Of a stretch of DNA of 34,053 bases, positions 1 through 4,300 are shown in pieces. The first letter of the stretch is position 1. Every line of letters starts with the position of its first letter. Origin of the DNA: a virus; IMG/VR virus record IMGVR_UViG_3300028364_000090, positions 1 to 34,053 of that record; one strand, written 5' to 3'. Made by a program: the position numbers and the translations under genes. Below the pieces are notes generated by a model that was not told the DNA's origin, ran no database searches, and saw nothing but the letters and a program-made list of their open reading frames with translations.

Positions 1-9
1 TTGATCAGC

Positions 10-819
10 TTATTTTTCATAGATATTTACTCCTTTAAACGTTCCTCTAGATGGTATTTTTCCTTGTTTCATGCGATTTATCGTTGCGTGTAAATTTGCT
101 ATACTTGTATTAAATTCTTCTGCTATAGTTTTTAGTCCATATACTTCTTTTGAGGACCCGTTGGGATATTCTATTACATATTGATTAGTATAAGGTAATT
201 TACTAGGATCAATGTTTTTAATCCACGAGTTTTCGCCTGACATTTTTTCTCTTAAAATAGATTTAGTTTTCTCAGTATGCGACTTTCCATAAAACGGATT
301 ATTATCTTTTGTTCTATCTCTACATTTGCCGCAAGTTTTTGCATAATATCCCATTGAACTATTGCAGTCAGGACAAATTTTAATACTCGAACCTTGTTTC
401 CATCTTCCGTTTTTTTCTTTAGATCTTCCAAATTTTTTCTTTTTTTCTTCGCTACTTAAATTTTTTATAGTCTTACTATGAGTTTTTAAAATCTTTTCTC
501 TAATTTTTTCTTTGTCCGGATGTGTTCCTAAAATATTACCGCCATTTGCAGGTGCCATATTATAACCGTTGATGTTTTTATCTAAAAATTTCTGTTCATA
601 TTCTAATAGTTCTTCTCGAGTATTAAAATTAGTTTCTTCTAAAGTTACATAACGAAATATGTTCCCATACTTGTTATAAGTTCTTTGTAGTTGTATATTA
701 TGATGTTTTCTTTTTCCTAAGTCTTGTTTGTGTTGTGTTAGTCTTTTTTCTATATTAAACGAACTACCATAATATCTACGCTGAGTTTTAGTATTTTCTA
801 TATAATATATTCCCTGCAT
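10..819 (-). CDS. GIY-YIG homing endonuclease next to thyA
   Basis: Probable free-standing homing endonuclease of 269 residues that would cut phage DNA and spread by homing. The N-terminus shows the GIY-YIG core (GIYYIEN at residues 3-9, YYGSS at 16-20), with Arg26 and Glu75 where I-TevI has its catalytic Arg27 and Glu75. A CxxC-x10-CxxC zinc-finger-like element lies near residues 149-165. It is followed by a NUMOD3-type segment (NPFYGKSHTEKTK) and a C-terminal helix-turn-helix-like NUMOD1/IENR segment (YGLKTIAEEFNTS). The order catalytic head, zinc finger, NUMOD repeats, HTH matches I-TevI. I-TevI lives in the T4 thymidylate synthase intron; here the gene stands directly after an intact thyA. 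The gene is visibly more A+T-rich than its neighbours, as expected for a mobile gene. Its start is ATG 819 with AAGGAAC upstream, buried in a hairpin. Confidence 0.9.
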   Translation of the reverse strand: MQGIYYIENTKTQRRYYGSSFNIEKRLTQHKQDLGKRKHHNIQLQRTYNKYGNIFRYVTLEETNFNTREELLEYEQKFLDKNINGYNMAPANGGNILGTHPDKEKIREKILKTHSKTIKNLSSEEKKKKFGRSKEKNGRWKQGSSIKICPDCNSSMGYYAKTCGKCRDRTKDNNPFYGKSHTEKTKSILREKMSGENSWIKNIDPSKLPYTNQYVIEYPNGSSKEVYGLKTIAEEFNTSIANLHATINRMKQGKIPSRGTFKGVNIYEK

Positions 820-862
820 TGCTGTTCCTTTCTTTTATTTATCTTATTGAAAGGAACAGCAA
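819..862 (-). promoter_or_regulatory. 14-bp hairpin masking the endonuclease RBS
   Basis: A perfect 14-bp inverted repeat (819-832 and 849-862) with a 16-base loop lies between the thyA stop and the endonuclease ATG. On the minus strand the 3' arm contains the AAGGAAC ribosome binding site and touches the start codon, so read-through transcripts from thyA should hide it. No U-run follows, so it does not look like a terminator. The loop contains a GATAAATA late box. Confidence 0.8.
836..843 (-). promoter_or_regulatory. Late promoter in the hairpin loop
   Basis: GATAAATA on the minus strand is one base from the T4 late box TATAAATA and identical to four other late boxes in this window. Using T4 spacing, transcription would start near 830, inside the 3' arm. 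The late mRNA would then lack the 5' arm but keep the AAGGAAC site, so translation is predicted only from late transcripts. Confidence 0.65.
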
Positions 863-868
863 GAAAAA

Positions 869-1735
869 CTAAACTGCAAACGGCATTTTAATTTCTGGAT
901 GATGTTGATAATTTATTAATTTATATTGACTTGGTGTTGTTTTTATCAACTCATCTAAGTTCGAAAACTCAGGCATTTCTAATGTTGGTCCTGGTAACAG
1001 ATCTCTTTTGAGTTGTTCATTTATTCCTTCTATTTGATTTTGATAAATGTGTAAATCCCCTGAGGTGTGAATAAATTCGCCAACCTTTAAGTTAAGGAGT
1101 TGTGCAAACATATGTGTAAGCAAACTATAACTAGCAATATTGAACGGCAGACCGAGTGGTGCGTCAACTGACCTCTGGTACAGTTGACAACTTAGTTCAT
1201 CGTCTTGAATATGAAACTGAAACAGTGTGTGACATGGCGGCAGTGCCATCACATGTACTCTGTCAGCATTCCATGCACTTACAATGTGTCGTCTACTGTA
1301 GGGATCATGATACATATTTTCCAAAACTTCTGCGATTTGATCTACAAATCCCAACTGTGCATCCCAATTACGCCACTGATGACCGTACACTGGTCCTAGA
1401 TCCTTGACAGTATCTGTGTTAATATAGCCTAAATCTCGAGCCTGTTTGTCAGCGTTAGCAGTCCAGATAGTAGTCTTGCCAACTAATTCTTCTCTTGGCT
1501 TGCCATAGTGTATTTCTGCTAATCTACGCTCGTCACTTGATCCTTCTAAGAACCAAAGCAATTCTGAAACAACTGATCGAAATGCTAATTTTTTCGTAGT
1601 AACTGCTGGAAATTCGTTACGCAAATCAAACCGCATTTGATAGCCGAACACTCCGCGTGTACCTATATTTGTCCTGTCACTACGGTCTTTTCCGTGTTCT
1701 AAAATATATTCAAGAGCATCATGATACTGTTGCAT
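869..1735 (-). CDS. thyA: Thymidylate synthase
   Basis: Methylates dUMP to dTMP using methylenetetrahydrofolate, supplying thymidine nucleotides for phage DNA synthesis. At 288 residues it is full length for the ThyA/Td family. The catalytic cysteine is Cys168 in ALPPCHTLFQFH. The dUMP-binding RRH, the QRSVDAPLGLPFNIASY block and the HIY-N segment are all present, as is the C-terminal KMPFAV. The ATG at 1735 follows AAGGAG and overlaps the end of the dihydrofolate reductase gene by 17 bases. The two enzymes work as a cycle because ThyA makes dihydrofolate, which the reductase recycles. No intron is present, in contrast to T4 td. Confidence 0.98.
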   Translation of the reverse strand: MQQYHDALEYILEHGKDRSDRTNIGTRGVFGYQMRFDLRNEFPAVTTKKLAFRSVVSELLWFLEGSSDERRLAEIHYGKPREELVGKTTIWTANADKQARDLGYINTDTVKDLGPVYGHQWRNWDAQLGFVDQIAEVLENMYHDPYSRRHIVSAWNADRVHVMALPPCHTLFQFHIQDDELSCQLYQRSVDAPLGLPFNIASYSLLTHMFAQLLNLKVGEFIHTSGDLHIYQNQIEGINEQLKRDLLPGPTLEMPEFSNLDELIKTTPSQYKLINYQHHPEIKMPFAV

Positions 1736-2571: not shown

Positions 2572-2917
2572 AGTCCGCCTAAGCCTCCTTTATAGGGTTT
2601 CCGACCCTGTCCGGAACATACTGTTGTATGTTTACATAGTTTTTGATACATTCGCTGTAACCTCCAAATCGTTTTTTAGGTTTGTATTTTTCAGCATTAG
2701 CAAGTATTTCTTGCTCTGCTATTGCTATATTATACATTGTATTTGACACAGTGTCAACTATCTCAAATGTATAATGACTTATATACTTTATTCTATCTTT
2801 TACATTGTCTTTTGTTGTTATACCAACTTTGTAAAAGTCTTCGTCTTTGTTATACAACAAGTACAATGTTGCAGGTAAGTCCTTCTTTTCGGGAAATCGG
2901 TCAAAGTAAGTTTTTAC
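2503..2917 (-). mobile_element. Nuclease-bearing insert within fdxA
   Basis: About 415 bp separates the old 5' part of fdxA from the old 3' part. It is flanked by the direct repeat CCAGT (2918-2922 and 2498-2502), which is also the sequence expected at the uninterrupted junction TGC-CCA-GTC. The insert holds almost all of a GIY-YIG nuclease gene, whose first three codons come from the host exon. It also holds a consensus promoter with a 15-base palindrome, a ribosome binding site, and a re-encoded fdxA 5' end finishing in UAG. Exact ends are ambiguous within the repeat. Confidence 0.7.
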
Positions 2918-2926
2918 ACTGGGCAT
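2579..2926 (-). CDS. Small GIY-YIG (T5orf172/MUG113-like) nuclease
   Basis: A 115-residue protein resembling the T5orf172/MUG113 branch of the GIY-YIG superfamily. Visible features are LYLLYNKDEDFYKVGIT (the two core strands), the Arg in VKDRIKYI, the putative metal-binding Glu in IAEQEIL, and the terminal FGGYSECI typical of this branch. No DNA-binding domain is added, so it is compact. Its ATG at 2926 lies inside the truncated fdxA fragment in another frame (ATGCCCAGTGTA), so translation probably couples to that fragment. No good Shine-Dalgarno is seen. Its stop lies 8 bases before the re-encoded fdxA start. By position it is the likely driver of the insertion, in the way MobA sits at the split T4 topoisomerase gene. 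Nuclease activity is inferred from family membership. Confidence 0.75.
   Translation of the reverse strand: MPSVKTYFDRFPEKKDLPATLYLLYNKDEDFYKVGITTKDNVKDRIKYISHYTFEIVDTVSNTMYNIAIAEQEILANAEKYKPKKRFGGYSECIKNYVNIQQYVPDRVGNPIKEA
2729..2757 (-). promoter_or_regulatory. Consensus sigma70 promoter with palindrome inside the insert
   Basis: TTGACA (2757-2752), a 17-base spacer and TATAAT (2734-2729) match the bacterial consensus at 12 of 12 positions. The site lies inside the nuclease coding sequence and reads toward the re-encoded fdxA, frd and thyA. TTGACAC-T-GTGTCAA (2743-2757) is a perfect dyad over the -35 box and could be a repressor operator. Confidence 0.7.
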
Positions 2927-2985
2927 ACACTGACGCAGTCCATGTGTTTACATTTGATACAGGCGTCATTAACAATATAGGTCAT
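2914..2985 (-). pseudogene. Orphan 5' fragment of fdxA
   Basis: The ATG overlaps the gp44 stop as TAATG, and the frame encodes 23 residues ([13 protein letters not shown] through VSVCPV) before TAA. These are the first 22 residues of the ferredoxin plus Val. The fragment is the remnant of the original fdxA 5' end, cut off by the insert. The same 22 residues recur at 2571-2506 with different codons. It still may serve as a translated leader that couples gp44 to the nuclease gene. Confidence 0.8.
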
Positions 2986-3899
2986 TACAATCTCGCAATC
3001 CTAATAAGTGTGGCCGCAAGGTTGATTTCAGGATCTGCTACCAACGCATGATCCACAAGACCCTGCTTGATAATTAATACCGCTGCGTCCTGTTGTTCAT
3101 CATTGCCAAACAATTCAATATTGTCATAGAGCCAACGATAGATTTCGTCCATCTCTTCCGGCAATACTTGACTACAGATAAGTTTACGTGCTTCTGTAAT
3201 TTTACCTGCCTTAAACAGATCAACCATTACAATCTTATAATCACCAGACGCAGCATCTACGTTTTTAGTAGTCAATACACCTGTTTGAGATTCTAGTTGT
3301 ACTGTGTTGATACACTTGCGCAGGTCTGGATAATATGCCTTGACATAGGTATCCAGTGTGTTCAGTTCAAACTCTACGCCTTCTATGATTAGAATTTCTG
3401 CCATACGTGCTGTAAATTCTACCTGATCAATTTTAGCAATGTGCATGTGCTGACAACGACTGTGTATAGCCGGCATAATTTTGTTAGGATAGTTACATGT
3501 TAGAATAAAGCGTACACTGTGACTGTAATCTTCCATCAAGTTGCGCAGCGCAGGCTGTACTGAGTTGATGTTCATATAGTCTGCTTCGTCAATCAGCACA
3601 ATCTTAAAATCACCGAACGGCATAGTTTGACAGAACATAATAAGTTTATCAACCCATTCGATCTTACGTGCTTCTTTAGATCCGTTAGCAATCATAACGT
3701 CACTGTCTTGTACGCCTAGTTGATTGATAAGAATCTTAGCAATAGTAGTTTTACCCAGTCCAGCACTGCCACTTAGCAAGATATGTGGAATACTTCCACT
3801 GTCAATCCAGCCTTTGATCTGTTCACGTTGATTCTCATCGCGGAACACATATCCATCTACTGTTTTAGGTCGGTATTTTTCAGTCCAGAGATCGCGCAT
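2985..3899 (-). CDS. 44: Sliding-clamp loader large subunit (T4 gp44-like)
   Basis: AAA+ ATPase subunit that, with gp62, loads the ring-shaped gp45 clamp onto primed DNA for the phage polymerase. The 304 residues are close to T4 gp44 in length. Landmarks in order are the N-terminal LWTEKYRP signature (residues 4-11), Walker A GSAGLGKT (44-51), Walker B VLIDEAD (101-107), sensor-1-like ILTCNYP (132-138) and the SRC arginine-finger motif (147-149). The ATG at 3899 has GGAG upstream. A perfect early promoter precedes it. The stop codon overlaps the ATG of the truncated ferredoxin fragment. The small subunit gene (62) is not in this window. Confidence 0.95.
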   Translation of the reverse strand: MRDLWTEKYRPKTVDGYVFRDENQREQIKGWIDSGSIPHILLSGSAGLGKTTIAKILINQLGVQDSDVMIANGSKEARKIEWVDKLIMFCQTMPFGDFKIVLIDEADYMNINSVQPALRNLMEDYSHSVRFILTCNYPNKIMPAIHSRCQHMHIAKIDQVEFTARMAEILIIEGVEFELNTLDTYVKAYYPDLRKCINTVQLESQTGVLTTKNVDAASGDYKIVMVDLFKAGKITEARKLICSQVLPEEMDEIYRWLYDNIELFGNDEQQDAAVLIIKQGLVDHALVADPEINLAATLIRIARL

Positions 3900-3930
3900 C
3901 TATTTCTTCTCCATTTAATACTAATATTAC

Positions 3931-3960
3931 ATTATACCCTTGATCTATGCAAGATGTCAA
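3931..3960 (-). promoter_or_regulatory. Consensus early promoter for gp44 unit
   Basis: TTGACA (3960-3955), an 18-base spacer and TATAAT (3936-3931) are perfect sigma70 hexamers in the only sizeable gap of this block. The gene starts about 30 bases downstream, with GGAG as ribosome binding site. It should drive gp44, the ferredoxin region, frd and thyA early in infection. Confidence 0.85.
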
Positions 3961-3979
3961 CTTCTTTTCACCTAGACTC

Positions 3980-4300
3980 TTAGCCCAGATTCTCCATGCT
4001 GTCTTCAGCAATTAGATCACTCCACGTTTTTAATTTTTCAAGTTTTACTGCTACTCTGTTTGATAGTTCGTCATGTGTCATTAACCCATGTGCCACCATC
4101 AATTCAATCATACACAGCACATCGCCTGCTTCTTCAACCAGCTTGATGCGATTAACAACAGCACGTTCGTTATCTTCTAGTGCAGCTTCAACAGTGTCAA
4201 ACTTGCGCATGGTCTTACTACATTGTTGTGTGAGCTCGCCACATTCTTCCATAGTAATAGTCATCAGTTGTTGTAATCTGTTAAGTGGGCTATTCTCCAC
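3980..4300 (-). CDS. MazG-like nucleotide pyrophosphohydrolase
   Basis: A 106-residue all-alpha protein with the MazG-type metal motif: EECGEL near residues 18-23 followed about 35 residues later by EEAGDVLCMIE. Such enzymes hydrolyse (d)NTPs to monophosphates and pyrophosphate; the substrate cannot be told from sequence. It is the second MazG-like protein of the window (the other ends at 5605) and shares little sequence with it beyond the motif. The start is GTG at 4300, favoured by GAGGT upstream, and overlaps the preceding small membrane gene by 11 bases. It is the last gene before the gp44 promoter. Confidence 0.75.
   Translation of the reverse strand: MENSPLNRLQQLMTITMEECGELTQQCSKTMRKFDTVEAALEDNERAVVNRIKLVEEAGDVLCMIELMVAHGLMTHDELSNRVAVKLEKLKTWSDLIAEDSMENLG

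Follow-up and report, generated by a model that had tools for sequence, protein, structure and literature searches.

Two kinds of described system are among the closest to the locus studied here. In the phage homing endonucleases I-TevI, I-TevII, I-TevIII, SegB and Aeh1 MobE, an RNA structure hides the ribosome binding site (RBS) in read-through transcripts and a late promoter gives an RNA without the 5' arm of that structure (PMC2988022). In fungal mitochondria, mORFs have been described in atp6, atp9, cox2 and nad3 (Allomyces, Glomus); each consists of a foreign carboxy-terminal coding piece and an endonuclease ORF placed in the gene; the native 3' end remains behind them, and one of these mORFs is of the GIY-YIG type (PMC3630166).

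The locus compared with them lies in a 34,053-nucleotide stretch of viral DNA, hereafter the window (the whole of the stretch analysed, IMG/VR record IMGVR_UViG_3300028364_000090). The region between its thyA gene and the adjoining endonuclease gene is probably the control region of a mobile cassette made up of an I-TevI-like endonuclease gene, a late promoter set in a hairpin, and a substitute for the 3' part of thyA; the cassette would be expressed late and replace the tail of its target gene. The endonuclease gene and the domains of its product are located as follows.

10 to 819, minus strand: free-standing GIY-YIG homing endonuclease gene, 269 amino acids, a relative of I-TevI
559 to 816, minus strand: GIY-YIG catalytic domain, residues 2-87 (PF01541, E 5e-7; PDB 1mk0/1ln0 by profile and by fold)
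286 to 342, minus strand: I-TevI-type zinc finger and then a NUMOD3 motif, residues 160-178, just below the curated cut-offs
13 to 234, minus strand: C-terminal DNA-binding module, about residues 196-269, common to HNH-type endonucleases at the same thyA site

The GIY-YIG domain was recognised with 30.3 bits against a cut-off of 22.6, while the zinc finger (25.1 bits, cut-off 27) and NUMOD3 (19.5, cut-off 20.4) were both slightly below theirs. The profile of the endonuclease family matched the catalytic as well as the DNA-binding structure of I-TevI (PDB 1mk0, 1.5e-16; 1i3j, 1e-11). Since the AlphaFold model was moderate (pLDDT 70.6, pTM 0.33), only its catalytic-domain match was used, which was found to be with 1ln0 (Foldseek, E 1e-6). 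I-TevI of the T-even td introns is among the best annotated phage relatives, with about 41% identity over residues 3-196, and no relatives were found in the bacterial genomes searched. The enzyme thus appears to be an I-TevI relative of the GIY-YIG homing type, and it is predicted to cut the endonuclease-free allele. Its C-terminal DNA-binding part was not matched by the I-TevI DNA-binding Pfam model. HNH-type nucleases encoded at this thyA end in L004, L182, L183 and L186 were found to share the module of about 75 residues, and its presence in both the GIY-YIG and the HNH forms suggests that it sets the thyA target. In these four contigs (4743-5315 in L004) an HNH-type N-terminal domain precedes the module, the nuclease being swapped and the target module kept. 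In L117-L119, another NUMOD3-bearing middle was found in place of the zinc finger.

The target gene itself was found to be a mosaic, in which the following parts can be distinguished.

869 to 1735, minus strand: thyA (thymidylate synthase), an intron-free mosaic gene in one uninterrupted 288-codon frame
872 to 1195, minus strand: last third of thyA, a putative cassette-borne co-conversion tract with its upstream limit near 1145-1195, placed by sliding identities and trees
872 to 922, minus strand: replacement thyA tail, KLINYQHHPEIKMPFAV (17 codons), the native type being KLINYxPMDSIKAPMAV
1 to 11, minus strand: probable start of the displaced original thyA tail, AAG CTG ATC AA (K-L-I-N/K), cut by the contig end

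The endonuclease gene had been described in the initial annotation as free-standing and without an intron, and this holds: no Rfam family was matched in the window, neither a group I intron nor any other known RNA, and the thyA frame is single and uninterrupted. It had also been placed next to the same target gene as that of I-TevI. The gene does adjoin thyA, but its insertion point lies within the last ~17 codons and does not correspond to the td intron site; a replacement tail comes with it.

Compared with the endonuclease-free L008, the window thyA was found to be 76-94% identical over the first 540 nt and 57% over the last 216 nt; in comparison to L002 and L091, the identity rose from 67-78% in the first part to 80-87% in the last 216 nt. 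In the tree of thyA nt 1-540, a clade of the endonuclease-bearing genes was rejected (p-AU 0.026) and the window was sister to L008 (100/99), while in the tree of nt 592-822, which leaves out the tail, the endonuclease-bearing set formed a clade (100/100). The tail before the endonuclease gene reads NYQHHPEIKMPFAV, against NYxPMDSIKAPMAV in endonuclease-free relatives. By these sliding identities and trees, the last third of the window thyA is foreign, a 3' coding piece fused in frame to the resident gene. Moreover, the endonuclease DNA of the window and L002 is 89% identical, far above the first two thirds of their thyA, as would be expected of a moving element. L007 has a cassette-type thyA tail and groups with the endonuclease-bearing set. 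This tail is kept without an endonuclease, so L007 looks like the scar of an endonuclease loss.

The GIY-YIG relatives examined are located at the thyA 3' end. Ten relatives (L002, L091, L112, L114, L118, L119, L139, L185, L186 and L187) were found to retain the displaced original thyA tail behind the endonuclease; an eleventh, L183, retains only its first bases. The displaced tail reads, up to its stop codon, KLIGYIPMDSIKAPMAV in L002, YNPMPSIKAPMAV in L091, RLDGYESLASIKAPMAV in L112, GYQSLASIKAPMAV in L114, GYNCHPPIKANMAV in L119, GYQSHGTIKASMAI in L187 and RQIKAIMAV in L186, and in L002 this stop overlaps the ATG of the next gene. The tail of the window itself is limited to 11 bases because the contig ends there, 9 bases past the endonuclease stop, so that the 11-base reading includes two bases of the stop codon; these bases are in register with AAA TTA ATT GGG (KLIG) of L002.

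Local tandem duplication of thyA 3' ends, with the common 3' ends inherited vertically, would also give two tail copies, and the two copies do always adjoin. This explanation is highly improbable, as the two tails of L002 are strongly different (KLINYQHHPEIKIPFAV vs KLIGYIPMDSIKAPMAV), the displaced copies match endonuclease-free relatives whereas the upstream copies match other cassettes, the phylogeny of the 5' part of thyA is not that of its 3' part, and the two tail copies of L139 flank an inverted endonuclease. Owing to the displaced tails in the relatives and the foreign last third of the window thyA, a tail-replacing homing cassette is very likely in the family, and there is good reason to expect one in the window.

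Some of the relatives have rearranged arrangements of their own. In L118 (4750-6100), about 60 codons of thyA precede the endonuclease and a longer C-terminal thyA piece lies behind it, and this thyA is probably broken. In L139, a 290-kb phage contig, the inverted endonuclease (~2800-4100) lies within the thyA 3' end. In L185 (2425-3270), the endonuclease frame continues in frame into the displaced thyA tail, giving a fused C-terminus that ends in HPQIVAKMAV.

For the tail-replacing cassette, the following course can be speculated. The endonuclease would cut endonuclease-free thyA about 17 codons ahead of the stop, close to the codons K-L-I-N-Y, and in the repair of the double-strand break the cassette would be copied in along with up to ~300 nt of the thyA sequence upstream. 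The carried tail would restore thymidylate synthase and, because it changes the 3' half of the site, should protect thyA, probably leaving it uncuttable. Behind the endonuclease gene the old thyA tail would persist, and the next gene would have it as its start region.

The sequence between the thyA stop and the endonuclease start codon contains a hairpin, the parts of which are given below.

849 to 862, minus strand: 5' arm of the RBS-masking hairpin, TTGCTGTTCCTTTC, starting 6 nt past the thyA stop and identical in L002 and L091
833 to 848, minus strand: hairpin loop, AATAAGATAAATAAAA, 16 nt in the window, 11 in L002 and 15 in L091
836 to 843, minus strand: candidate late-promoter octamer GATAAATA in the loop, with the transcript start predicted at ~830 by T4 geometry
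819 to 832, minus strand: 3' arm, GAAAGGAACAGCAA, which includes the Shine-Dalgarno AAGGA (830-826) and ends with the A of the ATG

On the minus strand the order is the thyA TAG (871-869), TTTTTC, TTGCTGTTCCTTTC, AATAAGATAAATAAAA, GAAAGGAACAGCAA and TG. The claims that a perfect 14-bp stem masks the RBS and abuts the start codon, and that GATAAATA lies in its loop, can both be read directly from the sequence: the two arms are 100% complementary over 14 bp, and the endonuclease ATG contributes its A (819) as the last paired base. Folding 101 nt of the plus strand gave z = -4.5, and the minus-strand fold returned the same stem. The stem is not due to chance: when the 100 nt upstream were dinucleotide-shuffled 1500 times, no stem reached 14 bp and the longest perfect one was 11 bp.

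The predicted masking is strong. Opening positions -15 to +3 of the endonuclease start would cost 17.2 kcal/mol. In 28 control genes with late promoters, drawn from the window and two related phages, the mean was 5.6 and the maximum 13.8 kcal/mol; the predicted cost for I-TevI of phage TuIa, 14.5 kcal/mol, is also below that of the window. In the predicted fold of the read-through transcript, the Shine-Dalgarno has a mean unpaired probability of 0.00 and a pairing probability near 1, and the mask was lost in 300 of 300 predictions in which the upstream sequence was replaced by shuffles. The proposal that read-through transcripts from thyA should be translationally silent for the endonuclease is supported by these predictions. 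A related arrangement was seen in L089 (~380-440) and L107 (~1165-1225), where a 92-aa ORF has a 16-bp hairpin adjoining its ATG. This hairpin includes a promoter of the sigma-70 type, with TTGACA in the 5' arm, a 17-nt spacer and TATAGC in the loop. The predicted opening cost is 21.5/19.8 kcal/mol for read-through and 3.0/7.1 kcal/mol for transcripts from the hairpin's own promoter, which is the logic of the window hairpin with a host-type promoter.

The octamer in the loop was examined together with its counterparts in the window. Ten NATAAATA octamers lie on the coding strand and one on the opposite strand; nine of the ten sit 16-28 nt before a start codon. In the two closest related contigs, GATAAATA precedes an ATG more often than the reversed pattern does (10 vs 2 and 11 vs 3). 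Judging from these counts, the phages of this group do use GATAAATA as a late-promoter motif. The copy at 836-843, proposed in the initial annotation as a late promoter, is a credible one because octamers precede start codons and are enriched before ATG in the related contigs. It is the sole late-type octamer among the early-type genes of the window (thyA, DHFR, clamp loader), while the other coding-strand octamers serve genes in the structural region above 6845, nearly all of them at 18-28 nt from a late-region start codon. Between the ferredoxin-like and clamp loader genes, a 115-aa ORF without a Pfam match was also noted (2579-2926, minus strand).

In T4 late promoters, the transcript starts about 6 nt after the octamer. 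By analogy with this geometry, the late transcript is expected to start near 830, as had been suggested, and the promoter sequence is positioned such that the late RNA would be without the 5' arm. The predicted leader is open, is about 11 nt long and has its Shine-Dalgarno at the 5' end. The octamer-to-start distance is the shortest among the late promoters of the window, and this very short leader is a weakness that counts against late-promoter control. In the mechanism proposed here, early and middle read-through transcripts would fold the 14-bp hairpin and no ribosome would load on the endonuclease gene, whereas transcripts from the promoter in the loop would be without the 5' arm, so that the endonuclease would be made late. 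Expression restricted to late infection by means of the hairpin is favoured by us with some reserve.

The two halves of this device were found to differ in their conservation. The same stem, with both arms identical, is present in L002, whose endonuclease is 86% identical to that of the window, and in L091, L101, L109 and L110, where the endonuclease is a deleted remnant. Between the window and L002 the stem is unchanged over 27 nt, while third-codon positions of the endonuclease are 81% identical (P about 0.003). At the octamer position, GATAAATA of the window is replaced by GATAGATA in L091 and GATAAAGA in L002. The hairpin and late-promoter device therefore stands in the window, but its octamer is damaged in both relatives that share the hairpin, and the promoter half is not conserved within the lineage. 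The loss of the octamer fits the dead endonuclease gene of L091; it does not fit L002, where the gene is intact.

The combination seen in L002 leaves room for another reading, in which the hairpin is a translational attenuator coupled to thyA. It would lower the endonuclease output and be partly opened by ribosomes finishing thyA, the octamer being incidental. The stem and the 6-nt spacing from the thyA stop to the 5' arm are identical in all three hairpin phages and the octamer is not, and the overlap (ATGA) between the td stop and the endonuclease start in T5-like relatives points to coupling in the family. We nevertheless consider such coupling unlikely, as the octamer of the window has the form that this phage prefers and stands at a workable distance, and a terminating ribosome would probably open no more than roughly the outer third of the stem and leave the Shine-Dalgarno part paired. 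Further, an intact octamer was found in the more distant relatives (L003, L111-L122; ~50-61% identical), in all of which the endonuclease lies directly behind thyA: [TC]ATAAATA ends 18-31 nt before the ATG in 11 of 11 distinct GIY-YIG relatives from outside the clade. Among endonuclease-free thyA loci, an octamer within 65 nt of the stop was found in 4 of 51, and these four are one lineage (L059-L064) with the octamer ~50 nt past the stop.

The hairpin could also serve thyA, by protecting the 3' end of its mRNA or ending transcription, with no role for the endonuclease. It begins close behind the thyA stop and persists in L091 with the dead endonuclease, although the decay of that gene looks recent. 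Neither strand has a U-run and no terminator-like site was found at the hairpin, endonuclease-free thyA loci are without it, and the stem adjoins the endonuclease start codon exactly; a role for thyA is thus very unlikely.

Late-promoter control of a masked RBS is the reading retained for the window. Among the relatives, predicted masking is within the control range in most cases and moderate in L114 and L120. Since the octamer is found in 11 of 11 distant relatives and strong masking is confined to the window lineage, the late promoter appears to be old and general and the strong hairpin a lineage-specific addition. From the folds alone the hairpin design seemed to be common to many relatives, but this impression failed the shuffle test, and the hairpin as a general family trait was rejected, as only the window lineage stands out. 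A pattern search for the hairpin core gave matches mostly at unrelated loci.

These outcomes imply that a free-standing selfish gene needs no self-splicing intron to enter the interior of a conserved gene when it brings a copy of the piece that it breaks. This would be a second route, besides introns, from a free-standing to a gene-embedded endonuclease. The cassette would account for mosaic thymidylate synthase genes in phages, and its full, decaying and lost forms offer a natural series for testing homing cycles. The T4 control device with its hairpin would also be extended to an uncultured phage group.

In comparison to I-TevI of the T4 td intron, the window has a homologous GIY-YIG nuclease with a zinc finger and NUMOD3 and the same association with thymidylate synthase; the cassette is, however, without an intron and is inserted near the thyA stop rather than at the td intron site. 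The initial annotation held that the two are controlled in the same way. The logic is documented for I-TevI (PMC2988022), but in I-TevI of TuIa the octamer forms the 5' arm, whereas in the window it lies in the loop. Aeh1 mobE and T4 segB are likewise free-standing endonuclease genes with an RBS hairpin and a late promoter (PMC2988022). They differ in that mobE is an HNH gene within nrdA and segB lies among tRNA genes, and the review makes no mention of a carried gene tail (PMC2988022). In the T5-like phages SP01, Gostya9, SelmaRatti and Kenya-K36, a related endonuclease (34% identical over 94% of its length) immediately adjoins the 3' end of thyA/td, and no hairpin, late octamer or displaced tail was seen there. 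SP01 and Gostya9 have this thyA-linked endonuclease in intact form, and Salmonella phage SP3 (L148, 3334-3592) has a remnant of it with an internal deletion.

No description of tail-replacing cassettes in phages was found in the literature search, which lay mostly outside subscription journals. On balance, we are inclined to think that phages harbour a distinct class of homing cassette inside intron-free thyA, a counterpart of the mORFs not described before, with a replacement tail, the old tail serving as the start region of the next gene, GIY-YIG and HNH nucleases swapped on one thyA-recognising domain, and the nuclease off until late. Like the mORFs, it pairs a foreign 3' piece, here of thyA, with an endonuclease gene, and the native tail lies downstream in the relatives. 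Unlike them, it is found in phages and not in mitochondria, its thyA-specific C-terminal domain is common to GIY-YIG and HNH forms, and it has its own late promoter, with a strong RBS-masking hairpin in the window lineage.
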